Below, piece by piece: positions 5,612 to 58,764 of a stretch of 64,000 nucleotides of DNA. The notes under the pieces were generated by a model, which was given only the letters and a program-made list of their open reading frames with translations, searched no databases and was not told the DNA's origin. The translations under genes were made by a program, and so were the position numbers. The stretch comes from Campylobacter magnus (GTDB taxonomy: Bacteria; Campylobacterota; Campylobacteria; Campylobacterales; Campylobacteraceae): the NCBI RefSeq assembly GCF_028649595.1, contig NZ_JAQSLK010000002.1:62001-126000 (forward strand), written 5' to 3'. Numbering within the stretch: the first letter of the stretch is position 1; each line of letters starts with the position of its first letter.

Positions 5612-5790
5612 TTTGGGAATTCTAGATTTTTTTGGGAATTCTAGATTTTTTTGGGAATTCTAGTTTTTTCAGAAAATCTAGAATTTTAGAAATTCTAGTT
5701 TTTTAGGAATTCTAGATTTTTTTGGGAATTCTAGAATTCCTTACTTACATTTTTTAATCTTTTAACTATTTTTAAATCTAGAATTCCCAA
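5612..5790. repeat. Tandem GGGAATTCTAGATTTTT palindrome array
   Basis: Between leuA and the ABC operon, a unit close to TTTGGGAATTCTAGATTTT recurs several times with a period near 20-22 bases, then degenerates into further GAATTC/CTAGA copies. The rest of the gap (5790-5937) is AT-rich promoter sequence. No gene is visible here. Confidence 0.85.
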
Positions 5791-8273: not shown

Positions 8274-9413
8274 ATGAAAATTCAAACCAAGCTGATAAAA
8301 GCAGTTCACACTAAGCAAAATCCATATTCTGCGATAACTACGCCGATTTTTCTAGCTAGCACTTACGCCCAGGATGAGATAAATAAGCCTGGCGAGTTTG
8401 AGTATCAGCGTGGCAAAAATCCTACTACAAAAGCCTTTGAAGACAGCATTTGCGCTGTCTTTGGCGCAAGCTACGCTCACGCAACAGCTAGTGGCATGGG
8501 AGCGATCACTTTGGCTTTAAGCCTTTTAAAAACAGGGCAAAAGGTGCTGTTTTGTGAAAATATCTATGGCGGGACTTTTCGCTACGCTAAGCAAATTATG
8601 GAAAATATAGGGATAAAATACGAACTAAGAAGCGATTTAGAAAGTCTTGAAAACCTTAGTGCTGATGTGGGTGCGATATACATTGAGACGCCCTCAAATC
8701 CACTTTTAAACATAACCGATATCAAAAAAATCGTAGCCCTAGCTCACGCAAATAACGCAATAGTCATAGCTGATAATACCTTTATGCCACTTTTTCAAAG
8801 TCCTTTGGCTCTTGGGGTGGATGTGGAGTTGCATAGTGCTACGAAGTTTATAGGTGGGCATGGCGACTCTCTTGGTGGCGTGGTGTGTACAAATGACAAA
8901 GCCCTTGGCGCAAAGATTGGCTCATTAAAAAACACGCTAGGAATTGCCCTTGCGCCTTTTGATAGCTATCTTATGCTGCGTGGCTTAAAGACCATGAAAC
9001 TGCGCTTTGATGCGCAAATTGCTAATACAAAGAAAATTCTAGAATTCCTTAAAAGCCATAAGGCAGTCCAAAAACTCTATTTTGCAGGAGGGGCTAGCGA
9101 GCACGAAAGGGCTGTGCACGAGGCGCAAGCTGGGGGCTGCTTGGGTGCGGTGCTTAGCTTTGAGATGAGTGAGAAATACTGCTATGAGCGTTTTGCTAGT
9201 TCGCTAGAGCTTTTTGATATAGCTTCATCTCTTGGTGGGGTTGAGAGCCTTATTTGTCATCCAGCTACGATGAGCCACGCAAGCTACGGCGAGCAGCTAA
9301 GGGCAAAAATCGGCATAAAGGATAATCTACTTCGCCTAGCTATTGGCTGTGAGGATGGGGAGGATCTAATAGCTGATTTAGCTAAGGCCTTTGCTAAGGC
9401 AAAAAAGAGCTAG
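8274..9413 (+). CDS. Cys/Met metabolism PLP-dependent enzyme (cystathionine synthase/lyase family)
   Basis: Belongs to the transsulfuration family: the PLP lysine is K191 in SATKFIGGHGD, preceded by the ADNTFMPLFQSPLALGVD cofactor region, with ETPSNPLL and a C-terminal GVESLICHPATMSH substrate segment. Members include cystathionine gamma-synthase, cystathionine beta- and gamma-lyases, methionine gamma-lyase and O-acetylhomoserine sulfhydrylase; sequence alone does not decide which. Cotranscription with a polar amino-acid importer points to use of imported cystine or another sulfur amino acid. A palindrome-derived ILEF is coded in frame near residue 256 (GAAAATTCTAGAATTCC at about 9033-9049). 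Confidence 0.85.
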   Translation: MKIQTKLIKAVHTKQNPYSAITTPIFLASTYAQDEINKPGEFEYQRGKNPTTKAFEDSICAVFGASYAHATASGMGAITLALSLLKTGQKVLFCENIYGGTFRYAKQIMENIGIKYELRSDLESLENLSADVGAIYIETPSNPLLNITDIKKIVALAHANNAIVIADNTFMPLFQSPLALGVDVELHSATKFIGGHGDSLGGVVCTNDKALGAKIGSLKNTLGIALAPFDSYLMLRGLKTMKLRFDAQIANTKKILEFLKSHKAVQKLYFAGGASEHERAVHEAQAGGCLGAVLSFEMSEKYCYERFASSLELFDIASSLGGVESLICHPATMSHASYGEQLRAKIGIKDNLLRLAIGCEDGEDLIADLAKAFAKAKKS

Positions 9414-10451: not shown

Positions 10452-10745
10452 TGGAATTCCAAAAAATAATGAATTTAATGAAAAACATTGTTTAGTTTGC
10501 CAGCGATAAAGAGATTTTTTACATTTGCGTAGAACTTAGGGTTAATAAGGCTTTATCTTAGCGAGTCAGTGGCGAATTTTTTAGAGAATTCTAGAATTTC
10601 TGGGGCAAATCTAGAATTCCAGAAATTCTAGAATTCCTAGGGATAAATTTAAAATTCCTGAAAAAATCTAGAATTCCTATTTAGAATTCCTAGGGACAAA
10701 TCTAGAATTCCTAGTACTAAAATAAGGAATTCTAGAATAAATTTT
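10452..10745. repeat. Long palindrome array upstream of nadK
   Basis: The 333-base gap before nadK holds a short GGAATTCC copy at 10452, about 110 bases with nothing I recognise, and then from about 10585 to 10740 a dense run of CTAGAATTCC and GGAATTCTAGAAT variants with CCTAGGGA spacers. No gene is visible. Confidence 0.82.
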
Positions 10746-10777: not shown

Positions 10778-11647
10778 ATGAATGAAATAGATTTTAGTTC
10801 AATATCAGCTGTTTTTGTAACCACAAGAGACGCAAACGCCCAAAAAGACAATATCAAAAACTTACAAGCCGTGTTAAATAAACTTGGCTTAGAAATGCTG
10901 CTTCAAACGCATAGCGCAGGGATACTTGGGCGAAGCGATGGACTAAGCTTAGATGAGATTTTTTCTCGCACGAAATTTGTGCTAAGCCTTGGCGGAGATG
11001 GCAATTATATCGGTGCTTGCAGGCGTTTTGTGCGTTATGGAGCTTGTGTTTTTGGTGTGCACACAGGACATCTTGGTTTTTTGACTGATGCGCTGCTGTG
11101 CGAGTGCGAAACTGCGCTAAAAGAAATCATCTCAGGCGAGTTTGTAGCCCAGCGCATAAAGCTTTTAGAGGCTGATTTTTTGGACGAGAGTGGCAAAACT
11201 CAAAAACGCAAACTAGCCTTTAACGACATTGCAATCTTGCGCAAAAATCCTACTAGCACGGCGCATATTGATGCTTTTTTGGACGATTTTTGCTTTAATT
11301 CATACTATGGCGATGGTGTGATAGTAGCAAGTCCAATGGGCTCAACAGCCTATAATCTAAGCGCAGGCGGAGCGATACTTCATCCTAGCGTAAAAGCTTT
11401 TAGCCTAACGCCAATTTGTTCACATTCTTTTTCACAGCGACCGATGATTTTAGGCGACGAACACGAAATAGAGTTTCGCTCAAAAGACGATGTAATTGTA
11501 ATGATGGACGGGCAAGACCACTTAGATTTAAGTGGCTTTTGTGGCGTAAAAATAAGAGCTAGCAAAGAGCAAATCACGCTAATTCACCGCAAAAATAGAG
11601 ATTATTTTAAGATTTTAAAAGAAAAATTGCGTTGGGGGCATCAGTGA
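10778..11647 (+). CDS. nadK: NAD kinase
   Basis: Phosphorylates NAD to NADP, the only route to NADP. Seen: the GGDG motif in LSLGGDGNYIGACR, NDIAI, and the glycine-rich SPMGSTAYNLSAGGAI nucleotide-binding segment. ATG 10778 (MNEIDFSSIS) is chosen over the upstream TTG at 10763 because that TTG lies next to the promoter -10 box. Length is 289 aa. Followed by recN with a two- to four-base overlap, the C. jejuni order. Probably translated from a leaderless message. Confidence 0.94.
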   Translation: MNEIDFSSISAVFVTTRDANAQKDNIKNLQAVLNKLGLEMLLQTHSAGILGRSDGLSLDEIFSRTKFVLSLGGDGNYIGACRRFVRYGACVFGVHTGHLGFLTDALLCECETALKEIISGEFVAQRIKLLEADFLDESGKTQKRKLAFNDIAILRKNPTSTAHIDAFLDDFCFNSYYGDGVIVASPMGSTAYNLSAGGAILHPSVKAFSLTPICSHSFSQRPMILGDEHEIEFRSKDDVIVMMDGQDHLDLSGFCGVKIRASKEQITLIHRKNRDYFKILKEKLRWGHQ

Positions 11648-13185
11648 TAAGTAGGCTTTTTATAAAAAATCATCTTAGCTTTGAGTCTTGCGAGCTTAGT
11701 TTTGGCGAGGGGCTAAATGTCTTTACAGGCGTAAGCGGTGCTGGAAAAAGCGTGCTTATGAAGGCTTTGCTCTCAGCCTTTGGGCTTAGTGAGGCGACAG
11801 CTCAGGTTGTAGAAGTCGATGCTTTTTGCACGCTAGGGCTTGATGATATTAGCGATGAGAGTCCAAATGTTTTTAAAGTGCTAAAACAAAACTCAGCAAG
11901 ATACTTTCTAAACTCTCAGTCAATCTCAAAGAAAAATCTAAGCTCAGCTTGCGCTTCTTTTGTTCGTTTTTTGGGAGCAAAAGAGAGTGGCGAGTTTGAA
12001 AACAGCGCACTTTTAGGCTTAGTTGATGCTTTGGTGGATGAAAAAAACTTTGCTAAAAATAAGGCTGATTTTGCTAGTATTTTTAAAGAGCTAAATAGCG
12101 CAAAAGCTGAGTTAGAAAAGCTTAAAACTGATGAGAGCCATGTAGAAGAGCTAAAAGAGCTAGCTAGCTTTGAGATAAATAAAATCTCACAAATTAACCC
12201 AAAAATCGGCGAGCTTGAAGAGCTAAGTGAGCTTAAAAAACGCCTTAGCAAGCGTGATAAAATAGAGCAGGCTTGGGAGAGCGCAAGTGGAATTTTTGAG
12301 TTTGAGAGTGCTGTTATTCGTGCCTTGGAGCTGTGTGAGCGTGATAGTGCGTTTTTTAGCGATGCGATGAACGAGCTCCGCTCTGCAAAAGAGAGCTTAA
12401 GCTTTGAAGAGCTGAGCGATGATGAGATTGAGGGCGTGCTTGACCGCATTGAAGCTCTTAGTGGCTTAGAGCGTCGCTATGGCAGCATTGAGCGTGCTTT
12501 GGAGGTTTTAGCTAGCAAAAAAGCTGAGCTAGAAAAACTAGAAAAAATAGAGTTTGAAAAAACTCATTTACAAAATAAGGTAAATGAGCTGAGTACTAGC
12601 GCAAATGCCCTAGCAAGCGAGCTTAGCAAAGCACGCAAAAAAGCCTTGCCAAAACTAGAAGCAAAGCTAAATGAGTATTTAGAAAAAATGTATTTGCCAG
12701 CACTTTTTTTGGAGCTAAAAGAATCTACAATGAGTGAGCTAGGGCTTGATAAAGTAGAGGTAAACTTAGGTGCTGTAAATCTAAAAAACATTTCAAGCGG
12801 CGAGCTAAATCGCTTGCGCTTAGCCTTTATAGCAACTAGTGCTGAGCTAGGGGGTAGTAGGAATTCTAGAATTCCTACTACGGCAAAAAACCAAACAGGC
12901 GTGCTAATCCTAGATGAAATAGATGCAAATTTAAGTGGCAAAGAAGCTATGAGTATAGCATCTGTGCTTGAAATGCTAGGACGAAGCTATCAAATCTTTG
13001 CTATTTCACATCAGCCGCAGCTTTCTAGCAAGGCAGCTCATCACTTTTTGATAGAAAAAAAAGGCGAAATTTCAAGTGCAAGAGAGCTTAGTAAAGCTGA
13101 GAGAGAACATGAACTAGCTCGCATGATAAGTGGCGAGCATGTAAGCCAAGAAGCAAAAGACTTTGCTAAAAAGCTTTTGGACTAG
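11644..13185 (+). CDS. recN: DNA repair ATPase RecN
   Basis: SMC-like ATPase acting at double-strand breaks. Starting at GTG 11644 the N-terminus is MISRLFIKNHLSF, the normal RecN opening; this GTG overlaps the nadK stop and follows GGGGG. Walker A GVSGAGKS is at 29-36, a long Glu/Lys-rich coiled-coil middle follows (about 150-350), then the ABC signature NISSGELNR, Walker B VLILDEIDANLSG and ISHQPQ. At 12860-12875 a perfect GGAATTCTAGAATTCC lies inside the gene in frame and codes RNSRIP just before the Walker B region, in a loop where the family tolerates insertions. 513 aa. Confidence 0.93.
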   Translation: MISRLFIKNHLSFESCELSFGEGLNVFTGVSGAGKSVLMKALLSAFGLSEATAQVVEVDAFCTLGLDDISDESPNVFKVLKQNSARYFLNSQSISKKNLSSACASFVRFLGAKESGEFENSALLGLVDALVDEKNFAKNKADFASIFKELNSAKAELEKLKTDESHVEELKELASFEINKISQINPKIGELEELSELKKRLSKRDKIEQAWESASGIFEFESAVIRALELCERDSAFFSDAMNELRSAKESLSFEELSDDEIEGVLDRIEALSGLERRYGSIERALEVLASKKAELEKLEKIEFEKTHLQNKVNELSTSANALASELSKARKKALPKLEAKLNEYLEKMYLPALFLELKESTMSELGLDKVEVNLGAVNLKNISSGELNRLRLAFIATSAELGGSRNSRIPTTAKNQTGVLILDEIDANLSGKEAMSIASVLEMLGRSYQIFAISHQPQLSSKAAHHFLIEKKGEISSARELSKAEREHELARMISGEHVSQEAKDFAKKLLD

Positions 13186-16997: not shown

Positions 16998-17100
16998 GGA
17001 ATTCTAGATTTTTAGGAATTCTAGAATTCCTAAGGTTTTTTTAAATCTAGAATTCCTAAGGTTTTTTTCAATCTAGAATTCCTAGGAATTCTAGAATTTT
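16998..17100. repeat. Palindrome array before lptC
   Basis: Contains a perfect GGAATTCTAGAATTCC at 17015-17030, further copies near 17047 and 17080, and AAGGTTTTTTTAAATCTAG spacers repeated twice. Confidence 0.85.
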
Positions 17101-18867: not shown

Positions 18868-20085
18868 TTAACGCACTTCGCCGTTGCCGTAGATGATGTA
18901 TTTGTAGCTTGTAAGTCCCTCTACGCCTACTGGGCCTCTTGCGTGAAGGCGGTTTGTGCTAATTCCCACCTCTGCGCCAAAGCCAAACTCGCCGCCGTCA
19001 TTAAATCTCGTGCTAGCATTGGCAAACACGCAGCTTGCATCAACTTCGCTTAAAAACCTTTGGCAAGCTGAGTAATCCTCGCTGATTATCGCCTCTGAGT
19101 GCCCTGAGCCGTATCTTGCGATATGCGCAAGGGCTTCGTCTATACTAGCTACTACTTTTATATTTAGCTTAAAATCATCGTATTCAGTGTCGTAATTTTG
19201 CTCGCTAGCACTTTTACACTCTATGATTTTAGCAGTTTTTGGGCAGCCAAAAATCTCTACATTATATTCTTTTAGTAGCGGATAAACAGCGCTTAGAAAC
19301 TTGCTTGCTACGCTTTCGTGAACCAAAAATGTCTCAGCTGCATTACACACTGCTGGGCGAGAGCATTTGGCGTTTATTGCGATATTTAGGGCTTTTTGAA
19401 GCTCCATTGCTTTATCTATGTAAATGTGGCAAAGTCCTTTGTCGTGCTTTAGCACAGGAATTCTAGAATTCTCGCTTACAAAGCGAACGAGATTTTCGCC
19501 ACCTCTAGGCACTATCATGTCTATAAACTCACTCATGCCCAAAAGCTCTAAAACTTCATCACGGCTTATGTCCAAAAAAGCCACAGAGCAAAAGCCAAGA
19601 GGCAAAAATGCGCTATTTAGTGCCTCCATAAACGCTAAGTTTGTAAGGCGTGCTTCTTTGCCGCCTTTTAGCACGCAGCCATTTGCGCTTTTAATTGCTA
19701 AGGCTGCGATTTCTAGCGTTACATTAGGTCTAGCTTCGTAGATTGCGGCAATTACGCCTATTGGCACGGCGATTTGGTTTATTTTTATACCTGATTTTGC
19801 CACCCAGCCTTTTTTGATCTCGCCTATTACTTCTTTTTGGCCGGCAATGCTTTCTAAACCTGCGCAAATCGCATTTAGGCGGGCTTCATCAAGCTTTAAG
19901 CGGTCCTTCATCGCTGAGTTAAGCCCCTTTGCGTTTGCTAGGTCAGCGGCGTTTGCGGCTAGTATTTTTGCGCAATTTTCTCTTACCTTGCTAGCTATGC
20001 GAAATATTAACTCGTTTCGTTCGTTTGCGCTAAGTTTTGCTAATTCTTTTTGCGCAATTTTTACGGAATTTAAAATTTTTTTCAT
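18868..20085 (-). CDS. proA: Gamma-glutamyl phosphate reductase
   Basis: Second step of proline synthesis: NADPH reduction of gamma-glutamyl phosphate. Aldehyde-dehydrogenase fold with IPIGVIAAIYEARPNVT, LKGGKEA, the MIVPRGGENLV region and the catalytic Cys in KHDKGLCHIYID, ending near RGPVGVEGLTSYK. 405 aa. At about 19456-19470 a 15-of-16 match to the iterated palindrome lies in frame and codes ENSRIP in a surface region. Start ATG at 20085. Confidence 0.94.
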   Translation of the reverse strand: MKKILNSVKIAQKELAKLSANERNELIFRIASKVRENCAKILAANAADLANAKGLNSAMKDRLKLDEARLNAICAGLESIAGQKEVIGEIKKGWVAKSGIKINQIAVPIGVIAAIYEARPNVTLEIAALAIKSANGCVLKGGKEARLTNLAFMEALNSAFLPLGFCSVAFLDISRDEVLELLGMSEFIDMIVPRGGENLVRFVSENSRIPVLKHDKGLCHIYIDKAMELQKALNIAINAKCSRPAVCNAAETFLVHESVASKFLSAVYPLLKEYNVEIFGCPKTAKIIECKSASEQNYDTEYDDFKLNIKVVASIDEALAHIARYGSGHSEAIISEDYSACQRFLSEVDASCVFANASTRFNDGGEFGFGAEVGISTNRLHARGPVGVEGLTSYKYIIYGNGEVR

Positions 20086-22212: not shown

Positions 22213-22368
22213 GGGAATTCTAGAATTCCTTGGGGAATTTTTTAGGGAATTCTAGATTTTTTAGGGAATTTTGGAATTTATTCTAGGGAATTTTAGAATT
22301 CCTTAGGGAATTCTGGAAAATTTTGCAGGGAATTTTGGAATTTATTCTAGGGAATTCTAGAATTCCAT
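22213..22368. repeat. Palindrome array before trmL
   Basis: Perfect GGAATTCTAGAATTCC copies at 22214-22229 and 22351-22366 with GGGAATTTTGGAATTTATT-type variants between, including a unit of about 55 bases that appears twice. The whole 313-base gap 22070-22382 is this array plus the GC-rich block. Confidence 0.85.
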
Positions 22369-31835: not shown

Positions 31836-32316
31836 GGGAATTCTAGAATTTGCTAGGGAATTCTAGAATTTTTTTAGGGAATTTTAGTTTAAGGAATTCT
31901 AGTTTTGGGGTTAGGGGGTATTTTACCTAGGAATTCTAGAATTCCTAAGACTAAAATTTCCACAAAAACGCAGATAAAGAGTGGGGGTTTAGGGCGTAGC
32001 TCTTATAAAAAGCAGCGGGGTTTGCCCCACTAAAGCGAGCAAACATCTAAAATTCCTAGCAATAAAATCTAGAATTCCTAAGGATAAATTTAGAATTCCT
32101 AGGCAAAAATCACTAGGAATTCTAGAATTCCTAAGCCTTGTGTCATCCCCCGACTTGACCCTAGGATCTCATCACAAATAATCTAGAATTCCATATAGAG
32201 ATCCTCGGGTCAAGCCCGAGGATGACACAAAACAGCTGGGGGATGACATAGTAGGGAATTCTAGAATTCCCTAGCAAAAACTAGAATTCCCAAGCTAAAA
32301 TCTAGAATTCCCTATA
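31836..32316. repeat. 500-base intergenic block of palindromes and REP-like hairpins
   Basis: Between the hotdog gene and the convergent Sel1-like gene. Perfect GGAATTCTAGAATTCC at 31930-31945, 32116-32131 and 32255-32270, many partial copies, and one large REP-like hairpin. A GC-rich piece near 31980-32045 (with CGGGGTTTGCCCC) looks like another small hairpin. No gene is visible. Confidence 0.85.
32142..32248. repeat. REP-like inverted repeat (GTCATCCTCGGGCTTGACC family)
   Basis: GTCATCCCCCGACTTGACCC, a GGATCTC segment and its near-complement GATCCTCGGGTCAAGCCCGA around a central AATTCCATATAGA give a large imperfect hairpin. Related single arms occur at 49877-49913 and 50048-50080, so it is a dispersed family distinct from the GAATTC palindrome. 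Confidence 0.75.
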
Positions 32317-32922: not shown

Positions 32923-33831
32923 CTATTTAAGCTTATAAAACTCCACGCCGGCGCAGGTGTGTATGGCGACTTGCCCAGAGTTTAGCAGATTTTTTAAAAT
33001 CTCTTTTGAACTCTCACAAAAGCCGCTCTCTATATCAGCTACGCTTTGTGGGCGAAGTGCTAAAAGCTTTAAAATTTCACTCTTGCTAAGCTCTTTCATG
33101 CTAGCAGGTGCCTTTCTAGTAGCGACAAATACAGGCGCAGCTGTTATGAGCGAGGCTAACTCTCTTAGCCTTTCTTCGCTTATAGCCTTGGCATTTGCGT
33201 AGGCTGGTGGGCGATCAAGCGTTGAGATATCCACCCTTGCTGGCTTTATTTTGCTAAAGGCAGTATTAAGAAGCTCAAACTCACGCTCGCTGTCATTTAG
33301 ACCCTCTAAAACCAAAACCTCCATCACAAGCTCGCCTTTAAACTCACGGGCAAACTGGCTCATATTTGCTATAAGCGTGCTTAAATCAGGCTTAGCAAGT
33401 GTGCGGTCGATCTTTCTGTAAGTAAGCGGATCTGCGCTATCAAGGCTAAATTTCACAATATCAAGCTCTTTAAGGCTTTCTAGAATTCCTTTATCCATCG
33501 CCCCAGAGCCATTGCTTAAAATTAACACTTTTTGCGTGCTTTTTATAGCATTTATTTGTGTGATTAGCTCTTTTAGATATGGATATAAGGTCGGCTCGCC
33601 ATTTGCTGTAAGCGTAATAACATCAGTTGCGCCGTGCGTAGATATAGCCTTTTTTAGCTCACTTATTACAAGCTCTACACTTGGCGGATTTGCTATATTG
33701 CCCCTCACTTTTGCAGGGGCTAGCTCGCAGTAAAGGCAGTCAAAGTTACAGCATTTTTGCTCTGGGCTTAGATCAATGCCAAGCGAGCTACCAAAACGTC
33801 TAGATGCCACAGGACCAAAGATAATAGCCAC
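32923..33831 (-). CDS. Radical SAM protein with winged-helix-like C-terminus
   Basis: [4Fe-4S]-SAM enzyme: the cluster motif CxxxCxxC is in KCCNFDCLYCELAP (about residues 27-35), with GVSLGID-like opening GPVASRRFGSSLGIDL, TLTANGEPTLYP and LEGLNDSERE. The last 70 residues look like a small winged helix. 302 aa. Similar proteins are often annotated as wybutosine-synthesis-like or MoaA-like, but the substrate is unknown. Stop and start overlap with hemE upstream (one base at 33831) suggests cotranscription. An in-frame palindrome half near 33479 codes GILE. Confidence 0.82.
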   Translation of the reverse strand: MAIIFGPVASRRFGSSLGIDLSPEQKCCNFDCLYCELAPAKVRGNIANPPSVELVISELKKAISTHGATDVITLTANGEPTLYPYLKELITQINAIKSTQKVLILSNGSGAMDKGILESLKELDIVKFSLDSADPLTYRKIDRTLAKPDLSTLIANMSQFAREFKGELVMEVLVLEGLNDSEREFELLNTAFSKIKPARVDISTLDRPPAYANAKAISEERLRELASLITAAPVFVATRKAPASMKELSKSEILKLLALRPQSVADIESGFCESSKEILKNLLNSGQVAIHTCAGVEFYKLK

Positions 33832-37950: not shown

Positions 37951-38601
37951 TTACTGGCTGATTTTAGCTAGGATTGTAGCACCTTGCGCCTTAAAAATCG
38001 CTATGAAATGAATAGGAATTTGCGTGATATTTGTGTGAAGCTTTGCTTTTTGCTTGGCTGCTTTTAGCTCATAGCCTGAGTATTCTAGCACTTTAAAAGG
38101 GCTTTTTGTAAAGCAATCGGCTAACTCTTCTTCGTGCGAGCGAAAAAACTCTATCTCACTTTGCCCAGCCACTTTTGTAGCCCTTAGTTCGCAAAAAGGC
38201 AAAAACTCGCTCTCATCGCTTTTTTTCATCGCTTTTGAGATTGCTATCACTCTAGTGCTTAGCATTTGATTTGTAGTAAAAAAATGCGCCCAAAATATAT
38301 ACTCATCGCTTTTTGCTGGATTTAGGCTTTTTGTGGGGCTATTTTTAGAAAATCCGCTAGTGTTTTTAGTGTTTAAAGGAATTCTGCTATTTTGTGAATT
38401 TTGCTGTTTTGATGGTGTTAAGAGAATTTTAGAATTCTCTGCTTTGCTGAGATTTTTATCGCTAGGAATTCTAGAATTCCTAGTAGTTTTTGGTGTTTTT
38501 TGTGGTTTTTCTTGGCTTTGTAAGGCAGGCTGGAGTGATTTTACATACTCAGCCTGCGCTAAAAAAACTAATGCTATTAGTAGGCAAATAGTCTTTCCCA
38601 T
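37951..38601 (-). CDS. flgQ: Flagellar motility protein FlgQ
   Basis: Assigned by position between flgR and flgP, as in C. jejuni, where FlgQ is needed for FlgP stability and motility. Signal peptide (about 1-18). Residues about 20-95 are a low-complexity Ser/Asn/Lys-rich insert that contains repeated palindrome-derived peptides (RNSRIPSDK, NSKILLTP, NSRIPLNTKN); a perfect GGAATTCTAGAATTCC is at 38465-38480. The C-terminal 120 residues look like the conserved domain. 216 aa. The start overlaps flgP by 25 bases. Confidence 0.8.
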   Translation of the reverse strand: MGKTICLLIALVFLAQAEYVKSLQPALQSQEKPQKTPKTTRNSRIPSDKNLSKAENSKILLTPSKQQNSQNSRIPLNTKNTSGFSKNSPTKSLNPAKSDEYIFWAHFFTTNQMLSTRVIAISKAMKKSDESEFLPFCELRATKVAGQSEIEFFRSHEEELADCFTKSPFKVLEYSGYELKAAKQKAKLHTNITQIPIHFIAIFKAQGATILAKISQ

Positions 38602-44889: not shown

Positions 44890-45200
44890 AGGGAATTCTA
44901 GAATTCTTAAGAGAGACTTAGGAATTCTAGAATTCCTTGTGAATTTTTCTAGGGAATTCTAGATTTTGCTTAGAAATTCTAGAATTCCTTGTGAATTTAT
45001 CTTGGGAATTCCAAATTTTGCTTAGGGAATTTTAGAATTCCTTGTGAATTTTTCTAGGGAATTCTAGATTTTTGCTCGCTTTGGGTGCCCGCTTAAAAGC
45101 GGGCACACGCTCGCTTGTTTTTTAGGGGATAGCGCCCCTTGAGCCCTTGGGGCTACGCCCCAAACCCCACATAAAAACCAATTCTAGAGGGAATTCTAGA
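44890..45200. repeat. Palindrome array with about 60-base tandem units upstream of the fdh operon
   Basis: Perfect GGAATTCTAGAATTCC at 44921-44936, then units containing AGAATTCCTTGTGAATTT and a GGGAATTCTAGATTTTGCT recur about three times to 45,070; a last copy is near 45,186. The divergent gap 44784-45370 also holds GC-rich hairpins and one decayed-looking block (45,200-45,350). No protein gene is visible. Confidence 0.82.
45085..45106. terminator. Perfect GC-rich hairpin
   Basis: GTGCCCGCTT and AAGCGGGCAC form a ten-pair perfect stem around AA. It is followed by ACGCTCGCTTGTTTTTTAGG, so a T-run 13 bases after the stem would fit a plus-strand terminator, although no plus-strand gene ends here. 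More GC-rich pairing (GGGGCTACGCCCC) follows at 45,152-45,164. Confidence 0.4.
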
Positions 45201-45370
45201 ATTTGCGCAGTGTTTTGGGCTTCGCAGCAGCGACAATAAAAATAAAAGGTGCGGCACTTGCGTTTAGCGTGCCTGCAGCAGTGCGAAGATAGAATACATA
45301 ATTCATCAAGCGCTGCCGCATAGCGGGTAAGCGTAAGAGCCCCACCAGCAAATTTTACAATCTGGCCGAA

Positions 45371-49756: not shown

Positions 49757-50105
49757 TCTAGGAATTCTAGAATTTAGCTTAGGAATTCTAGAATTCCTAG
49801 AATTTGTTTTAGGAATTTTAGATTTTGTTCTGGGAATTCCTAGAATTTCTCTTAGGAATTTTAGAATTCCCTACTATGTCATCCTCGGGCTTGACCAGAG
49901 GATCTCTATATGGAATTCTAAAATTCCTTTGTTTTTCTAGGGGTTAGGGGGTTTCTTTTTAGGAATTTTAGATTAGGAATTTTAGAATTCCCTCTCATCC
50001 CCTATCCCCTTTAGGGGATCTCTATATGGAATTCTAAATTTATTTGTGATGTCATCCCCCGGTCAAGCCGGGGGATGACATAAAACTTAGGAATTCTAGA
50101 ATTCC
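49757..50105. repeat. Palindrome and REP-like block ahead of the selenocysteine tRNA
   Basis: The 454-base gap 49663-50116 holds perfect GGAATTCTAGAATTCC at 49782-49797 and 50090-50105, about ten variants, and REP-like arms (ATCCTCGGGCTTGACC near 49879; CATCCCCCGGTCAAGCCGG near 50053, a perfect hairpin with its partner) ending in GATCTCTATATGGAATTCTA. No protein gene is visible. Confidence 0.85.
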
Positions 50106-50116: not shown

Positions 50117-50214
50117 GGAGGGTAAAGCTATCTGGTGATACTCACGGACTTCAAATCCGCTGGCGGGGTGGTTGACCATCTCGCGGGGAGTTCGATTCTC
50201 TCACTCTCTCGCCA
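50117..50214 (+). tRNA. selC: tRNA-Sec (anticodon TCA)
   Basis: Long-variable-arm tRNA with GGACTTCAAATCC anticodon arm (TCA reads UGA), a nine-pair variable stem (GCGGGGTGG/CCATCTCGC), T arm GGGAGTTCGATTCTCTC and encoded CCA (50212-50214). It is what FdhA and SelD need. The acceptor pairing is imperfect: only about five pairs are clear (GAGGG with CTCTC), so the exact 5' end is uncertain by a base or two. The integrase gene of the mobile element begins 195 bases downstream. Confidence 0.88.
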
Positions 50215-50409
50215 AAGTAACTTTTTTAATTATTTTTTAATTAGCTTTCAATTTGTAAAAATTGTTTTTAATTATGAAAATATCGCTATTTCAGTTGTTT
50301 TTAATTATCCATTTTTTATACTTTGATATGAAATTGATTTGTTTGCATTGGGTATTTTATTAGGTATCTTTTGGGAACATTAGGTATTTTTTCAAAAAAA
50401 AGGATAAAT

Positions 50410-51678
50410 ATGGGTAAAGTAGCAAAAGTTTTCTTGCAGGATAAAGATCTAAGAAATTTAACACCAAAAGAAAAAATGTATCTTAGAGCTGTGGGCAGTC
50501 CAAAAGAGCTCTATGTAAAAGTCTATCCTAGTGGAATTAAAACTTTCGTTTTAAAAGTAAATGCTAAGTATTTGAAAATCAAAGAATTTAGAGCTGGATT
50601 GTATAGTGTAGCTGAAGCAAGAAAAGAAGCTTTAGAGCTTTTAAAAAAGATCGAAACTGGAGTTAGTGTTGGAAATCTCTTTGGAAAATCTAAAAAATAT
50701 CAATATGGCAATTTATTCAAGCTATATTTGGAACAAAAGAAAAGACAAGTTACAAGCTCAGAATATTTAAGAAGCATAGAAAATACACATAAAAAATATA
50801 TTTTGCCAAGCTTTGAAAACCGAGATATCAAGACGATAAAATATAGCGAAATTTTAGAAATTTTAAATGCTATATTCATCCCAAAAAATCATAATATGCC
50901 AAGAATAGAGACTATCCATAAGCTGATTGACAATATAAATGGAGTTTTTAAGCTGGCACAAAAAGATAGATATATTTCTTTTAACGATATAGCTTTTTTA
51001 CACCAAGAATTCCCTACAAGAGAAAAATTTAATAAGTTTAATGGTCTAGATGGCAGATATAAAGCTATCACTAATATAGATCTACTAAAAGATTTCCTGC
51101 TAGACTTAAAGCTTTGTGGTAATATTGATTTACAAACCAAAAGAGCTATTTATTTACAGATACTCACAGCAAACCGCCCTTTTAATACAGTTAGTGCAAA
51201 GTGGAGTTATATTGATTTTGATGAAGGAGTTTGGAATATTCCATTTTATGAAATGAAAACAAGAGTAGCACATAAGGTAGCTCTTAGCTCTTATGCTATT
51301 AAAATACTAAAAGAACAATATCTTTTTAGCAAAAACTCTACTTTTGTGTTTCCATCTTTTAGGGAAACAAAAAGTGGACATTTAAATAGAGATAGCATAG
51401 GTAAAGCTATTAGAACCAGCTTGTCTAAGGGGAAATATGTTGGATTGGCTACCAGCCACGGATTTCGTGCTACTTTTAAGACGATTTGTTCTACACACGA
51501 AGCCGAGCTTTTAAAAATAGGTATAGGCGAAAAAGTAATTGAAGAGTGCTTGGCGCATAAAGAAAGCAATGAAATAATCTATTCGTATGAAAGAGCAAAA
51601 GCAACGCTGGAACAAAAAATAAAACTTATGCAGTGGTATGGAGATTTTTTGAATAAAATTTGTGCTTTTTTTGAGTAA
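50410..51678 (+). CDS. int: Tyrosine recombinase (P4-type integrase)
   Basis: Integrates and excises the element at the adjacent tRNA-Sec gene. N-terminal arm-binding domain (LYVKVYPSGIKTFVLKV), core-binding region, and catalytic residues R256 (TANRPFN), H350 and R353 (SHGFR), H383 (LAHKES) and Y393 (YSYERAKA), followed by LMQWYGDFL as in P4-type enzymes. ATG 50410 follows AAAAAGGATAAAT; an upstream TTG is not needed. 422 aa. Confidence 0.94.
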   Translation: MGKVAKVFLQDKDLRNLTPKEKMYLRAVGSPKELYVKVYPSGIKTFVLKVNAKYLKIKEFRAGLYSVAEARKEALELLKKIETGVSVGNLFGKSKKYQYGNLFKLYLEQKKRQVTSSEYLRSIENTHKKYILPSFENRDIKTIKYSEILEILNAIFIPKNHNMPRIETIHKLIDNINGVFKLAQKDRYISFNDIAFLHQEFPTREKFNKFNGLDGRYKAITNIDLLKDFLLDLKLCGNIDLQTKRAIYLQILTANRPFNTVSAKWSYIDFDEGVWNIPFYEMKTRVAHKVALSSYAIKILKEQYLFSKNSTFVFPSFRETKSGHLNRDSIGKAIRTSLSKGKYVGLATSHGFRATFKTICSTHEAELLKIGIGEKVIEECLAHKESNEIIYSYERAKATLEQKIKLMQWYGDFLNKICAFFE

Positions 51679-51880
51679 AATTTAACTTTTTAATTTTGTA
51701 AAGCCAAAAAGTCCAAAATCCATTTTCATAGGACAAGCTAAAACATTGATTTTATAATGATTTAAATATATAGTATTTTTAATTTTTTAGCTATATGTGG
51801 GTGTAGTAAATTTTTCAAGCCTTTAAACAATGAAATAGTAAAGTCGTTTTAAAAAAAATTAACAAAAATAAGCAAATTTT

Positions 51881-51896
51881 TTGTCCGCTAGGACAA
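51881..51896. promoter_or_regulatory. TTGTCC-N4-GGACAA inverted repeat
   Basis: Perfect six-base arms around GCTA, with related TTGTCC in both downstream 72-base repeats and AGGACAA at 51,729. Candidate operator or integrase/excisionase arm site in the 650-base gap after int. Confidence 0.5.
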
Positions 51897-51994
51897 ATCA
51901 TATAATTTTTTATAGGTATTAAATGATGATATAATAATCATTTGAAGGTATTTCATAATTTTTATAACTCAAAATCATAGAAAAAAGTAGGAGT

Positions 51995-52163
51995 AAATGC
52001 TTATATATTCATTATTTGAAGTCATTTTGCTAGTTGTCCCACTTGGATTTTTTTAAAAATACTATGAAATGCTTATATATTCATTATTTGAAGTCATTTT
52101 GCTAGTTGTCCCACTTGGATTTTTTTAAAAAATACTTTGTAATGTTCTTATATTCATTATTTG
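51995..52163. repeat. Two 72-base direct repeats plus a partial third
   Basis: The unit starts AAATGCTTATATATTCATTA and contains GCTAGTTGTCCCACTTGGA; copies begin at 51995 and 52067 and are nearly identical; a shorter copy (TTATATTCATTATTTG) begins near 52146. The rest of the gap 51679-52330 is AT-rich with ATCATTTGAAGG-like fragments and no gene. Iterons of a replication origin, integrase arm sites or operators are all possible. Confidence 0.8.
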
Positions 52164-52330
52164 TGGGTCTAGTCACTCTTTTAGCTTGGACAAAATTTTT
52201 CAAATAAAATTAGCATTTTTAAACTTCTCTTTTTGGTGTAAAAAAAAGAAAATAAAAAGGGAGTTTTTAGTATAATCTTCTACATAAATGTAGTTTTTCG
52301 ATAACAGAATAATATAAAAAAGGGTAACTG

Positions 52331-52747
52331 ATGATGACAGATCAGCAAAAAATCATCATTGATGAAGAGCTAAAAAAAATAGGGGCAAAGCTGGATAACT
52401 ATGATGATTTTATAGAATATTGTAAAAATCGTGGTATGTTTGGTGATGATGTGCCTTTTTATAATAGGGTGGTTTTTACACGCCCAAATATAAGGAAACT
52501 TTATAAAGAGTTTAGAAGTCCTATAAAACAAGCCTCTAAGCTTTTAGGGTTAACTTATAAAGAGTTGGGAGAACAAATAGGTTACACTGAGGCTGCCTTG
52601 ATAACTGCTGTTATGAAAGGCAAGATAAGTAATCCTATGCTTAAATCTATAGAACTTTTATTGGAAAATCACAATTTGAGGGAAGAAAGAAAAAGAGATA
52701 ATACACTTTTTAATGATACAATAAAAAAGATTTTACAGGATAACTAA
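52331..52747 (+). CDS. Helix-turn-helix protein, element family member 1
   Basis: 138 aa. N-terminal conserved segment (IIDEELKKIGAKLDNYDDFI, EYCKNRGMFGDD) then a probable HTH (LLGLTYKELGEQIGYTEAAL, TAVMKGKISNPM) and a basic tail. Closely similar to the next gene and, over the HTH, to the protein at 54,963. Likely a DNA-binding regulator of the element; family otherwise unrecognised. Confidence 0.7.
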   Translation: MMTDQQKIIIDEELKKIGAKLDNYDDFIEYCKNRGMFGDDVPFYNRVVFTRPNIRKLYKEFRSPIKQASKLLGLTYKELGEQIGYTEAALITAVMKGKISNPMLKSIELLLENHNLREERKRDNTLFNDTIKKILQDN

Positions 52748-52835
52748 ATAACAAAAACATTTATTTTCTATCTTTCAGTTAAAATTAAGAAATATTCTTT
52801 TATAATTCGCCTGAGCTTAAAAACAGGAGGCGAAT

Positions 52836-53276
52836 ATGCGAAGAAAAATATCTACAATTCAAATTCAGTGCGAAAATCCAAAAACTATAATTGATGAAGA
52901 ACTAAAAAAACTTGATGCTAATCTTGGAGATAACTACGATCATTTTATAGAATATTGTAAAAATCGTGGACTATTTGGCAATGATACACCTTACAGATCA
53001 ATAGGATTTTTTTCTAGAGAAAACATAAGAAAGTTATACAAAGAGTTTAGAAACCCTGTTAAACAAGTCTCAGCACTTTTAGGTCTTACTTACAAAGAAC
53101 TTGGAAAACAAATAGGCTATACTGGTATGGCATTAACTAATGCTGTTGTGCGTGGTGAATTAAGTGTTCCTATGCAAAAAGCTCTAGAGCTTTTTTTAAA
53201 AAATTATGATTTAAAAAAAGAGATTGAAAAACAAAAAATTGTTTTTAATTTAGCTATTAAAGCTATGAGTAGCTAA
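52836..53276 (+). CDS. Helix-turn-helix protein, element family member 2
   Basis: 146-aa paralogue of the preceding gene: IIDEELKKLDANLGDNYDHF, EYCKNRGLFGND and the HTH LLGLTYKELGKQIGYTGMAL. Preceded by an AACAGGAGGCGAAT site. Tandem duplication followed by divergence is the simplest reading. Confidence 0.7.
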   Translation: MRRKISTIQIQCENPKTIIDEELKKLDANLGDNYDHFIEYCKNRGLFGNDTPYRSIGFFSRENIRKLYKEFRNPVKQVSALLGLTYKELGKQIGYTGMALTNAVVRGELSVPMQKALELFLKNYDLKKEIEKQKIVFNLAIKAMSS

Positions 53277-53289
53277 AAAAGGAAAAAAG

Positions 53290-53484
53290 ATGGAACAAAT
53301 ATTTAAAGTCAAAAGAAGTAGCGCAAATGCTAGGTGTAAGTGAGATATATTTAGCAAAAATGAGAAATTCTAAATATAACACTGAAAAAGATGGCACTCT
53401 AAAGAAATCATTTTTTATGAGCAAGAAGCAATAGAAAAATGGCTTGAAGCAAAGCAAGTAGAAAGTTTAAAGAAAATAAGTTAG
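53290..53484 (+). pseudogene. Frameshifted small HTH/excisionase-like gene
   Basis: Three frames together give a coherent protein: ATG 53290 (MEQI), then WNKYLKSKEVAQMLGVSEIY and LAKMRNSKYNTEKDGTL in the next frame, then FFYEQEAIEKWLEAKQVESL in the third up to TAG 53482-53484. SKEVAQMLGVS plus a C-terminal WLE is the MerR/AlpA-excisionase pattern. At least two indels disrupt it, unless programmed frameshifting occurs. Confidence 0.65.
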
Positions 53485-53495
53485 TGGAGTTAACT

Positions 53496-53720
53496 ATGGC
53501 TTGGGAATATCCAGCAATCGTAATTGATGGCGAGACAACTATGACAAAAGAGCAAGTTAAAGCTGAATTTGGTTTTTCTTTACAAGCGCAAGCAGAAATG
53601 CGTATGGAGAAAAATAGATTAAATCCTCACAAAAGAATTCCATTTATCAAACAGGGCAAAAGAATTTATTATTTGCGAAGTGAAATCATTAGGTGGCTAA
53701 AAAGTCTAGAAAATAAATAG
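53496..53720 (+). CDS. AlpA/excisionase-like DNA-binding protein
   Basis: 74 aa. MTKEQVKAEFGFSLQAQAEM forms a helix-turn-helix, and RIPFIKQGKRIYYLRSEIIR plus WLKSLENK is the wing and end typical of AlpA-type regulators. ATG 53496 follows GTGGAGTTAACT. Probably replaces or complements the broken gene just upstream in controlling excision. Confidence 0.7.
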   Translation: MAWEYPAIVIDGETTMTKEQVKAEFGFSLQAQAEMRMEKNRLNPHKRIPFIKQGKRIYYLRSEIIRWLKSLENK

Positions 53721-53784
53721 GTGATTTACATTGCTGGCACAATGTAAATCTAGAGCTCCATTATAGAAAGGAGATTTCTTTCAT

Positions 53785-54960
53785 ATGAATATGGGCATTA
53801 TAACAAAAAATATTAAAAAAATCAAGGATAACGAAGCCAAAAGTAGCTTTTTGGATAATTTTGGCTGCCTGCCTCGTGGCTCTCTTACTATGATTTATGC
53901 TGGTGCTTATACTGGCAAAAGCTCGTTTATGACAGCACTAGCTAGGGATATAGTAAAAAATAAAAAAGAAATCTCTTATTATCACATAGATGGCGATAAC
54001 ACACTAGATATAGCGCAAGATCGTGGCATAGATATAATAGAGGATGAGTTTTCTAATTTTCATTATGAAATTGTTACTGACAAACCTAAAAAAGATAGAT
54101 TTGAATTTTTAAAACAAATTACCCAGTGCGATGCTAGCGAGCTTAAAAATTCTCTGATTGTGATTGATAGTGTAAAAGATTTTTTCATTGGCGATATGAC
54201 AAAAGACAAAGATGTAAATCATTTTATGGAGATTTTAAAAGTCATCACAGCCAAAGGTGGCACAGTCGTTATCTTACATCACCAAACAAAGCAAATTGGC
54301 GAAGAAAACAACAAAGCTTGGAAAGGTTCTACAACATTTAACGATAGTGCTGATAATACTTATTATGTCTCATCAATAAAAAAAGAAAGACAAATGATTA
54401 TTAGCTTGGAAGTGATAAAAAAGAGAGCAAATATAGCAAATCAATCATTTGTAATCTACAAAGAAACGCATAAGATTAAAAAACTTGATAAAGATGAGTT
54501 TGCTATTGAATTCCTGAATGATAAAGAACGATACACTATTGAAATAGCAAAAGAAATCATAGATGAACGCTTAAAAATTACTCAAAGTGAATTATCTAGC
54601 GCAGTAAAACAAAGAGCAGATATTGCTGGTGTGTTAATCGTGGGCGATAACAAAAAGTGGAAACTGTTTGATAAATTTAATGGAAAGTTTTGGCGCATAG
54701 ATAATTCAAAAACCGCTACAAAAAAAGTATTTTATCCTATTCTAAGTGAGAATTTCAAAATAGCACAAGAAAAGAAAGAGCAATATCTGCAAAAGCTTAT
54801 AGAGATCAAAAAAAGTGGCAAGTTGCCTATATCTCTTAGCAAACTTGGAAAATCTATACGACCACACCTAAACGCTAAAGAGGTAGAAAAGCTTTTAATA
54901 AACGATATTATGCTTGATGACAAGGGGCAAAATATCGTGGACATCATCACTAAGGATTAA
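53785..54960 (+). CDS. RepA-type/RecA-like AAA ATPase
   Basis: 391 aa. N-terminal RecA-like domain with Walker A AGAYTGKSS at 39-47, Walker B SLIVIDSV (Asp128), and an HHQTKQIG segment, similar to plasmid RepA hexameric helicases and RadA-like ATPases. The C-terminal part from about residue 245 (KERYTIEIAKEIIDERLKIT) is a separate domain that is duplicated in the next gene. Ribosome site AAAGGAG. Probably drives replication or maintenance of the element. Confidence 0.75.
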   Translation: MNMGIITKNIKKIKDNEAKSSFLDNFGCLPRGSLTMIYAGAYTGKSSFMTALARDIVKNKKEISYYHIDGDNTLDIAQDRGIDIIEDEFSNFHYEIVTDKPKKDRFEFLKQITQCDASELKNSLIVIDSVKDFFIGDMTKDKDVNHFMEILKVITAKGGTVVILHHQTKQIGEENNKAWKGSTTFNDSADNTYYVSSIKKERQMIISLEVIKKRANIANQSFVIYKETHKIKKLDKDEFAIEFLNDKERYTIEIAKEIIDERLKITQSELSSAVKQRADIAGVLIVGDNKKWKLFDKFNGKFWRIDNSKTATKKVFYPILSENFKIAQEKKEQYLQKLIEIKKSGKLPISLSKLGKSIRPHLNAKEVEKLLINDIMLDDKGQNIVDIITKD

Positions 54961-54962
54961 AA

Positions 54963-55748
54963 ATGAAAAGAAGTAAAAATTTTGAGCATCCAGTGGTTAA
55001 AACCTCTAAGTTTTTAAGACTTACTTATAAAGAGCTTGGAGAGCAAATAGGATATACTGAATATGCGCTAAAAACATCTGTGAGTGAAAATAAAATTAGC
55101 GATCCTATGAAAAAAGCTTTAGAACTTCTTATGCGAGCTATCGCAGCAGAGAGCTTAGCAAATAATAAACAGCTGGAACAACTTAAGAATAATTTAGGAA
55201 AGGCTATTAAGACATTAAAAGCTTTACAAGAAGAAGTTGACATACTAAGGGCTACAAGAATAGATTTTAAAGCTAATAAAGATGAGCTTGCTCTAGAACT
55301 TTTAAATGATAAAGAACGATACACAATTCAAATAGCCAAAGAAATTATAGATGAACAACCAAAGATCACTCAAACTGAATTAACGATTGCTATAAAACTT
55401 AGAGCTAAAAGTGCTGGTATTGATATAGTGGGCGATAACAAAAAGTGGAAACTGTTTGATAAATTTAATGGAAAGTTTTGGCGCATAGATAATTCAAAAA
55501 CCGCTACAAAAAAAGTATTTTATCCTATTCTAAGTGAGAATTTCAAAATAGCACAAGAAAAGAAAGAGCAATATCTGCAAAAACTTGCAGATCTTAAAGC
55601 AGGTGGTAGGTTGCCTATATCTCTTAGTAAATTCGGTAATTATATATGGCCACACCTAAACGCCAAAGAGGTAGAAAAGCTTTTAATAAACGATATTATG
55701 CTTGATGACAAGGGGCAAAATATCGTGGACATCATCACTAAGGATTGA
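54963..55748 (+). CDS. Chimera: HTH domain joined to the ATPase C-terminal domain
   Basis: 261 aa. Residues 1-60 match the HTH of the two small regulators (FLRLTYKELGEQIGYTEYAL), residues 60-100 form a coiled coil, and residues 110-261 repeat the C-terminal domain of the upstream ATPase. Across about 54,640-54,795 and 55,427-55,582 the two genes are identical at DNA level as far as I can see. No ATPase motifs. Starts two bases after the ATPase stop. Could load the shared C-terminal domain onto operator DNA or act as a regulator of replication; this is inference. Confidence 0.65.
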   Translation: MKRSKNFEHPVVKTSKFLRLTYKELGEQIGYTEYALKTSVSENKISDPMKKALELLMRAIAAESLANNKQLEQLKNNLGKAIKTLKALQEEVDILRATRIDFKANKDELALELLNDKERYTIQIAKEIIDEQPKITQTELTIAIKLRAKSAGIDIVGDNKKWKLFDKFNGKFWRIDNSKTATKKVFYPILSENFKIAQEKKEQYLQKLADLKAGGRLPISLSKFGNYIWPHLNAKEVEKLLINDIMLDDKGQNIVDIITKD

Positions 55749-55749
55749 A

Positions 55750-56214
55750 ATGTATAGCAATAAGCAAGTGCTAGATGTTTGCTGCGGTGGCCGTATGTTT
55801 TACAATAATAAACAAGATGAGCGAGTGCTGTTTTGCGATAAAAGAGAGCTAGACACTACGCTTTGTGACGGCCGTAAGTTTGTAGTAAAGCCTGATATGC
55901 TAGCAGATTTCAAAAACCTGCCTTTTGATGATGAGAGCTTTGCGCTAGTGGTTTTTGACCCACCGCATTTGCTAAAAGTAGGCGATAGTGCTTATATGGC
56001 TCTCAAATATGGAAAATTAACGCCAGAGTGGAAAGCAGAGCTTGGCCGTGGCTTTGATGAGTGCTGGCGAGTGCTAAAAAGTGGTGGCACGCTTATATTT
56101 AAGTGGGCTGAGATTGACATAAAGCTTAGCGAGATATTAAAGTGCTTTTCGCAAAAGCCACTAATCACGCAAAATACAGCTAATAAGTCGCATTGGTGCG
56201 TGTTTTTTAAATAA
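55750..56214 (+). CDS. SAM-dependent methyltransferase, phage/element type
   Basis: 154 aa from ATG 55750, which overlaps the previous stop. Motif I-like VLDVCCGGRMFYNNK and catalytic-type VVFDPPHLLKVGD, ending ANKSHWCVFFK. The DPPH instead of DPPY/NPPY suggests an adenine-type DNA methyltransferase or a related RNA/protein enzyme. No restriction enzyme is adjacent. Seen also in phage and plasmid genomes of related bacteria, from family knowledge. Confidence 0.75.
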   Translation: MYSNKQVLDVCCGGRMFYNNKQDERVLFCDKRELDTTLCDGRKFVVKPDMLADFKNLPFDDESFALVVFDPPHLLKVGDSAYMALKYGKLTPEWKAELGRGFDECWRVLKSGGTLIFKWAEIDIKLSEILKCFSQKPLITQNTANKSHWCVFFK

Positions 56215-56225
56215 GGAGACTAAAA

Positions 56226-56555
56226 ATGTATGTAGGCAAGAGAGAAAAATTCTATCAAATTACAAAGCGGTCTAGTAATCTTGGTGAAAGCGAGTGTAAA
56301 AGTATTTTTATATATGCAGAAAAAGATAAGATGTCAGCTTTTAACGATGCTTTAGTTATGCTCAAAGATCACTTAATGGAACATAAGTATATTTATGAAT
56401 ATGACGGTAAAACAATAGATGAGTTGATTGAAAGCAACATCTCAAGCAATGAAGATGTCTTAGCGCATACTTATTATTATAGAGATATTTATGGTCGCAG
56501 ACAAGAAGTCAAATTTTATTTGATGGAGCTTTACTTGATAGAAAATAGATTTTGA
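56226..56555 (+). CDS. Hypothetical protein
   Basis: Unrecognised 109-aa protein with mixed charge, Tyr-rich C-terminal half (TYYYRDIYGRRQEVKFYLME) and no signal or membrane segment. Good AAGGAGACTAAAA site, 11 bases after the methyltransferase, so probably last in that operon. Confidence 0.6.
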   Translation: MYVGKREKFYQITKRSSNLGESECKSIFIYAEKDKMSAFNDALVMLKDHLMEHKYIYEYDGKTIDELIESNISSNEDVLAHTYYYRDIYGRRQEVKFYLMELYLIENRF

Positions 56556-56662
56556 AAGCTCTCTTTGGTGTAATTTTTACAATACAAAATAAGATTTTTA
56601 AAAATATATAAAACTTTTTTTAATGTATTTAATTATAAAAAATGTTTTATAAATTAAATAAT

Positions 56663-56698
56663 GTTTTAAACATTATTTAAGGTTTTTTATGTTATAAT
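56663..56698 (+). promoter_or_regulatory. Shared element promoter box A
   Basis: TTTTAAACATTATTTAAGG directly before TATAAT at 56693-56698. The same box occurs at three other promoters of the element (see entries near 57.6, 60.4 and 61.2 kb). Confidence 0.6.
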
Positions 56699-56728
56699 TT
56701 TTAATATTAAAAGAGATAGCTAGGAGTA

Positions 56729-56850
56729 AAACAGCAGTTGAAATGAGAATTTGATTAAGGAGGTGTAAAACAAAAATAAAAGGAAGTGTGAAAAGCTGGA
56801 GACTTTTCACACAGGAGGTGTTGTTTTCAATTGAGAAAGTAAAACAACTT
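56729..56850 (+). ncRNA. Candidate structured RNA or leader with two strong hairpins
   Basis: Downstream of promoter box A, no long protein is coded but two hairpins stand out: GTGTGAAAAG/CTTTTCACAC (56786-56812, ten perfect pairs) and GTTGTTTT/AAAACAAC (56820-56848). Two AGGAGGTGT sequences flank the first, so one could be ribosome sites hidden or exposed by the fold. A small membrane peptide gene follows at 56,879. Could be a regulatory RNA or an attenuator-like leader. Confidence 0.45.
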
Positions 56851-56878
56851 TTGCATTATACTATAAAAAGGCTTTAAA

Positions 56879-57004
56879 ATGCAAAAAATACAAAAAAAAT
56901 TAGAAAATCTTACTGGAGAGCATTTAGTTATATTCTTTGCTCCAATTAGTTTTATTTTTAGCTTGTGGGCTTTCATAAATACTTTTGTGCTTGGAAATAT
57001 GTAA
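56879..57004 (+). CDS. 41-aa membrane peptide
   Basis: ATG 56879 to TAA 57004: basic start (MQKIQKKLENLTGEH) then one hydrophobic helix (LVIFFAPISFIFSLWAFI). Lies after the hairpin leader and before the ParA gene. Weak ribosome site (AAAAAGGCTTTAAA). Could be a holin-like or type I toxin-like peptide; undecided. Confidence 0.5.
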   Translation: MQKIQKKLENLTGEHLVIFFAPISFIFSLWAFINTFVLGNM

Positions 57005-57042
57005 GGCTAAAAGAAAAGACTTTTTCTTTTTTTGGTGTAAAA

Positions 57043-57060
57043 GAGCTGGCTTGCCAGCTC
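57043..57060. terminator. Perfect GAGCTGGC/GCCAGCTC hairpin
   Basis: Eight-pair stem around TT between the membrane peptide and ParA genes. Plus-strand T-run is lacking after it, so a classical terminator is uncertain; on the minus strand the stem is followed by TTTT. Confidence 0.4.
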
Positions 57061-57084
57061 CAAAAAACAAGAAAGGCAATTAAA

Positions 57085-57645: not shown

Positions 57646-57690
57646 AACATTTTTTAAAGTTTTTAATATTTAAAGAGGCTTAATTATAAT
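57641..57690 (+). promoter_or_regulatory. Shared element promoter box B
   Basis: TTTAAAACATTTTTTAAAGT then TTTTAATATTTAAA and TATAAT at 57685-57690, 18 bases before the ATG at 57708. Overlaps the last codons of the ParA gene. Confidence 0.6.
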
Positions 57691-57707
57691 CTAAAAAAAG
57701 GAAAAAA

Positions 57708-57971
57708 ATGAGTTACAAAATAAAAGAAAAAGAACTAAAAATCTTAGAGATGGCGGCAGAAGATTGCGATTTAAAAATTGATTATGAATATAGCGGTAGA
57801 GCAATGTTTGGAGAATATTGTATAGGTATTAAATACCAAGATGACTATGACTTAGGAAGTTTATGCGAGTTTATAAATGAAAATGGCGCACCAAAACTAG
57901 CATTATCAATAGCTACAAGATGGCGGACTGATACTCTAGGAAAAGGTTATATAAAATACAACCATTTTTAA
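57708..57971 (+). CDS. Hypothetical protein
   Basis: Unrecognised soluble 87-aa protein (opening MSYKIKEKELKILEMAAEDC, with LKIDYEYSGRAMFGEYCIGI). First gene of the operon driven by box B. No motif recognised. Confidence 0.6.
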   Translation: MSYKIKEKELKILEMAAEDCDLKIDYEYSGRAMFGEYCIGIKYQDDYDLGSLCEFINENGAPKLALSIATRWRTDTLGKGYIKYNHF

Positions 57972-58755: not shown

Positions 58756-58764
58756 AGGAAAAAA

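Follow-up and report, generated by a model that had tools for sequence, protein, structure and literature searches.

The 16-base palindrome seen inside recN belongs to a repeat that runs through this Campylobacter genome (G000), and the real repeated unit is not the palindrome but an asymmetric 11-mer, GGAATTCTAGA. By analogy with known uptake sequences, we consider it fairly probable (roughly 0.6) that this word is a self-recognition word of this Campylobacter species, resembling the DUS and USS words and kept by biased uptake. The window, by which we mean the whole stretch of 64,000 nucleotides that was analysed, contains 17 exact copies of the palindrome GGAATTCTAGAATTCC and the whole genome 452, compared with 0 to 2 in each of 14 congeners; this frequency is far beyond chance. 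Each such palindrome consists of two overlapping head-on copies of GGAATTCTAGA, and 208 head-on overlapping pairs sharing a 9-base core were counted.

The word statistics were based on 464 kb of G000, on 400 kb of G060, another genome of this species (a MAG, CAMCEN010000003.1), and on 1.6 Mb of the congener G004, with genes called by a simple longest-ORF method. The word, usually followed by (A/T)TT, occurred 701 times in the sample of G000 and 615 times in that of G060, about 1.5 per kb in both, versus 3 times in G004. Its copy number genome-wide is in the thousands. The equal density in a separate genome ruled out an assembly artefact. The 10-mer of the word was seen 783 times in the 464 kb, where 0.7 occurrences were expected, and the most over-represented words of G000 all overlapped GGAATTCTAGA; the HIP1 octamer GCGATCGC was not among these iterated words. 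The commonest single-base variants of GGAATTCTAGA were the transitions G to A and C to T, with A to T at the last position also frequent. In a viral collection, the palindrome was present in five contigs only, with one site in each. Our literature searches returned no description of GGAATTCTAGA or of any Campylobacter uptake sequence.

The preliminary description had placed the palindrome in frame within recN, where it was said to add six residues (RNSRIP) before Walker B. The palindrome is indeed present in the open frame of recN (Table 1). An alignment of 16 RecN proteins also confirmed that this RecN carries additional residues between the signature motif and Walker B; the added segment, however, comprises 11 residues (about 33 bp) rather than six. 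The 11 extra columns were shared by G000 and its conspecific G060 and present in 0 of the 14 congeners, and RecN is a clean case of a word copy with an insertion. Because the added piece is about 33 bp long, retention of the frame needs no special explanation, and a 16-bp in-frame insertion is not required. Together with its arms, the recN palindrome of G000 is perfect over 28 bp (GTAGTAGGAATTCTAGAATTCCTACTAC, window 12854-12881), whereas in G060 the right arm deviates (CCTAGCAC). Judging from this difference, one arm would have been either perfected or decayed between the two strains.

Table 1. Coordinates of the recN features, of other coding copies, and of word arrays and the contrast region in the window.
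Feature	Position	Strand	Remarks
recN, host gene of the palindrome	11632..13185	+	Open reading frame; NCBIfam TIGR00634 recN, E 4.7e-52, under the curated cut-off of TIGR00634
Palindrome GGAATTCTAGAATTCC in recN	12860..12875		Two copies of GGAATTCTAGA, head-on and overlapping
About 11 added codons (SRIPTTAKNQT) in RecN	12865..12897	+	From the 16-protein RecN alignment; limits accurate to within a few residues
Word in proA (18868-20085, -)	19457..19472		NSRIP for NATIP, in register
Word in the Cys/Met-metabolism PLP (transsulfuration-family) gene (8274-9413)	9033..9048		KKILEFL in register with LKVAKFL
Half palindrome (one word) in the radical SAM gene (32923-33831, -)	33474..33489		In-register substitution
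Exact palindrome in the gene named flgQ in the preliminary description (37951-38601, -)	38465..38480		N-terminal segment, unaligned
Intergenic word array	5616..5787		Spacings about 19 bp
Intergenic word array	10585..10741		Upstream of the gene preceding recN
Intergenic word array	16998..17100		One exact palindrome (17015)
Intergenic word array	22214..22366		Two exact palindromes (22214, 22351) and a terminator-like hairpin (22219-22256)
Intergenic word array	31837..32311		Three exact palindromes (31930, 32116, 32255); interspersed with a different hairpin repeat
Intergenic word array	44892..45205		One exact palindrome (44921)
Intergenic word array	49761..50105		End adjoins tRNA-SeC
Integrated element	50211..64000		From 50117 by another delimitation; about 31% GC, almost word-free (contrast region)

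In the 464 kb, the word was counted at 116 places within genes, on either strand, and the claim that the element enters coding DNA holds; insertion as its general mode of entry, however, is not supported. We evaluated the 39 coding words in the 464 kb that had an aligned orthologue in G004, counting gaps of three or more residues: 28 sites showed no gap, 10 an insertion and 1 a deletion. These 28 are in-register replacements. At the word codons of the ungapped sites, the identity was 41% versus 57% at random positions. This below-average identity points to point mutation as the likely origin of the in-register copies, by which existing residues would have been rewritten. Insertions, on the other hand, were over-represented at coding words, with 10 of the 39 sites and 7 of the 32 genes affected, where 1.3 sites and 0.9 genes were expected for codon positions drawn at random (a value reached in 0 of 500 simulations). 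Several of them fall in linker-like stretches, and some are small arrays such as NSRIPSDNLLNSRIPSENSRIPK.

The copies that had been listed alongside recN fared differently when compared with orthologues. Those in proA, glyS, murI, the transsulfuration-family gene and the radical SAM gene proved to be in-register substitutions, the gaps across the word in alignments with the G004 orthologues being absent or tiny. The copy in the gene named flgQ falls within an unaligned stretch, and no insertion is confirmed there either; a Pfam search of that gene's product gave no match supporting the name. Several of the listed copies are half words with at least two mismatches to the palindrome.

The insertions at words in RecN and in six others of the 32 genes, being above chance, lend something to the suggestion made earlier of an element that enters genes and is kept if it lands in frame; such a mobile palindromic element could be of the kind of MITEs, REPs or Rickettsia palindromic elements. 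For such an element, we would expect a constant unit, and no conserved unit was found past about 16 bp around the word. Most words lie outside palindromes (701 words versus 128 palindromes), and no match to a Y1/REP-type transposase (PF01797) was found in the G000 genome. On the predominance of substitutions, the absence of a constant unit and the absence of a Y1 transposase, we rejected this explanation, which we regard as very improbable.

The use of reading frames separates the DNA word from the peptides that it encodes. The four stop-free frames of the 11-mer were used 29, 29, 34 and 24 times, and the remaining frame, one per strand, contains TAG and is avoided, as the frame tally proposed in the preliminary description had anticipated. 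The selection for frames coding ILEF or NSRIP that was proposed with it reduces to this avoidance of the TAG frame, and peptide selection is ruled out by the even use of the open frames. Rather, the conserved thing is the DNA word and not the peptide, because 34 of 35 coding words were identical between G000 and G060 where 27 were expected, a value reached in 3 of 2,000 simulations. As a separate observation, an open reading frame of 273 codons elsewhere in the genome (G000:C1:311332-312151) carries four words at an exact spacing of 45 bp (311861-311996), with repeated SRIPK peptides.

Overall, 80% of the words in the 464 kb were intergenic. Their density was 11.6 per kb in convergent spacers, 8.6 per kb in tandem spacers and 1.9 per kb in divergent spacers, that is, words concentrate at gene ends and are rare in promoter regions. 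The two orientations were balanced (367 versus 334). A Chi- or KOPS-like site was rejected on the balance of orientation in every sampled stretch. Words were also rare in low-GC bins, with 0.24 per kb versus 1.69 per kb elsewhere. The low-GC integrated element of the window starts after tRNA-SeC and carries a tyrosine (phage) integrase (50371-51678) and a resolvase (62306-62923); an Rfam search of the window returned tRNA-Sec only. The intergenic arrays are dense, with a spacing of about 21 bp, and same-strand words were phased at about 10.5 bp when tandem duplicates were removed (power 0.328 versus 0.172 at the 99.9% level). Two more families of intergenic hairpin repeats, TGTCATCC...GAGGATCTC and CGTCATTGCGAG...AAGCAATCTC, are often flanked by words; they were seen in the window at about 32140-32250 and 49880-50090, and at G000:C1:200156-201261.

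Comparison of the two strains, which aligned at about 97% identity, revealed how words and arrays change within the species. In intergenic DNA the mismatch was 2.4% in words versus 5.9% in flanks, and in coding DNA it was 0.2% versus 3.3%. Spacer length had changed in 33 of 48 spacers with at least two words versus 5 of 25 without words. This variation of array length between strains, together with T runs after some inverted pairs, would also be explained by an intergenic repeat of minisatellite or terminator type, produced by duplication and slippage in spacers and kept as terminators, with the coding copies as spill-over. We consider such a repeat quite unlikely. Words are scattered over hundreds of separate spacers as well as the 116 coding places, on both strands; the coding copies are mostly substitutions and are conserved above their flanks; and only 8 perfect bidirectional terminator-like pairs (in the strict form) were present in the 464 kb.

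The GAATTC core of GGAATTCTAGA is a RAATTY site, the methylation motif of CtsM in Campylobacter jejuni. We take CtsM to be Cj0208. M.CjeNI (Cj0208), first reported as specific for GAATTC, methylates RAATTY (PMC3526280), and DNA uptake by C. jejuni requires the methylation of RAATTY by CtsM (PMC8468864). In G000, GAATTC was 20-fold above expectation and AAATTT at 0.67 of expectation, and the whole genome contained 4,455 GAATTC sites versus 103 for the reversed control. Among palindromic hexamers, AAATTT, likewise a RAATTY site, was the most over-represented in the five congeners sampled, and among 8-mers TAAATTTA ranked first. The enrichment of TAAATTTA in these relatives may be a trace of a bare methylated RAATTY signal.

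A single orthologue of a D12 methyltransferase, with 49-66% identity, was present in every sampled genome of the genera g1-g5 and g7, all sampled congeners included, whereas outside these genera the best D12 matches were relatives with at most about 35% identity. The ratio of TAAATTTA to ATTTAAAT had a median of 2.9 in genomes with the methyltransferase versus 1.2 in genomes without it, counting related genomes that are not independent of each other; genus g7 and the genome G010 are exceptions to the association. In G000, the D12 gene itself carries the word and lies between secA and a gene for a LolC-like permease (both neighbours named from their sequence), and no restriction gene was found beside it at this locus. 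NCBIfam and PDB searches with the methyltransferase gave no match. This orphan D12 methyltransferase is probably CtsM. A ComEC family protein, the only competence component tested, is present in G000. Elsewhere in the sampled genomes, two members of genus g5 (G018 and G029) have CTTAAG once per whole genome versus 431 and 604 GAATTC sites, a strong site avoidance. Repeats that look CRISPR-like were also seen, of GTTTCAAATCCTAAAAGGATA type in G004 (about 92 copies) and of CCTTGTAGGATT type in G002.

An orphan methyltransferase linked to a highly iterated word is also known for HIP1 (PMC4390886), and helical phasing at about 10.5 bp is expected if a protein binds one face of the helix. Hence the word could be a HIP1-like methylation site that, methylated or bound by a protein, has a role other than uptake, in chromosome organisation, repair, recombination or methylation-biased mismatch repair. 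We judge this unlikely, since the strong depletion that words show in acquired DNA and in promoter regions fits uptake words, as does their pairing at gene ends, and a role of RAATTY in uptake has been demonstrated in the same family (PMC8468864).

Published uptake sequences have a high copy number and AT-rich flanks, are under-represented in coding and newly acquired DNA, and form overlapping inverted pairs at gene ends (PMC7811141); they occur in lineage dialects, some of them in dyad form (PMC3630211). We favour uptake for GGAATTCTAGA because those published features of USS and DUS that could be tested were found: a word within the range of 9-12 bp, present in roughly a thousand copies or more in a genome, unbiased between the two orientations, scarce in newly acquired and in coding DNA, and paired in inverted form at gene ends. 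The methylation motif in the core of the word would also supply a plausible receptor-side logic. According to this model, the orphan D12 adenine methyltransferase, probably CtsM, would methylate GAATTC within the word, and the transformation machinery would prefer DNA with the methylated word. Fragments gaining the word by mutation would have a higher rate of uptake and recombination, with words then accumulating by molecular drive where proteins and promoters tolerate them. Most words would arise by point mutation, multiply by local duplication in intergenic DNA and flexible linkers, and often pair head-on into the 16-bp palindrome. Local duplication of this kind may account for both the long phased arrays and the surplus of insertions in coding DNA, which the simplest drive model leaves unexplained. 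Some observations run against the uptake model. The dense arrays with a spacing of about 21 bp, changing in length between strains, are atypical of known uptake sequences; coding insertions above chance are not predicted by a simple drive through point mutation; TAAATTTA in G004 showed no depletion in low-GC bins, being denser there; and the association between methyltransferase and word has the exceptions g7 and G010.

Further, it is possible, at somewhat worse than even odds, that this is the first DUS system of Campylobacterota, in which specificity would have shifted from the bare methylated RAATTY to an 11-bp word, combining methylation-based with sequence-based self-recognition, and the genome would have been rewritten to match. 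The word, which has expanded to an extreme degree in this one species, is built around a motif that already serves the family as a methylation-dependent uptake signal, and the congeners seem to have a weaker signal. The familiar cases of uptake sequences are those of Pasteurellaceae and Neisseriaceae, and how these arose is debated. If the uptake model is true, these genomes would form a natural series in which to follow the change from an uptake bias to a genome-wide word, and to ask whether methylation came first. They would likewise provide an example of a drive at the DNA level rewriting protein sequences, with the extra segment of RecN as a possible case.

Among known systems, Rickettsia palindromic elements also place palindromic DNA in frame within protein genes. 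Those elements are much longer mobile units; here there is no unit longer than 11-16 bp, and substitutions make up most of the coding copies. The CtsM/RAATTY system of C. jejuni shares the RAATTY core GAATTC and has a D12 orphan methyltransferase that is probably orthologous. There, however, the 6-bp motif is simply frequent, whereas here a specific 11-bp extension is over-represented. HIP1 of cyanobacteria is likewise a word iterated genome-wide with a link to an orphan methyltransferase (PMC4390886), but its sequence is different, and the word described here is an asymmetric 11-mer that clusters at the ends of genes and is scarce in acquired DNA. The word also resembles the USS of Haemophilus influenzae and the DUS of Neisseria, each a short asymmetric word with AT-rich flanks and thousands of copies on both strands, scarce in coding and acquired DNA and with inverted pairs that overlap at gene ends (PMC7811141, PMC3630211). 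Compared with these, GGAATTCTAGA, a candidate uptake word, is unrelated in sequence and belongs to a lineage that differs at the phylum level; it has a RAATTY methylation core, is more strongly intergenic and forms long helically phased arrays.
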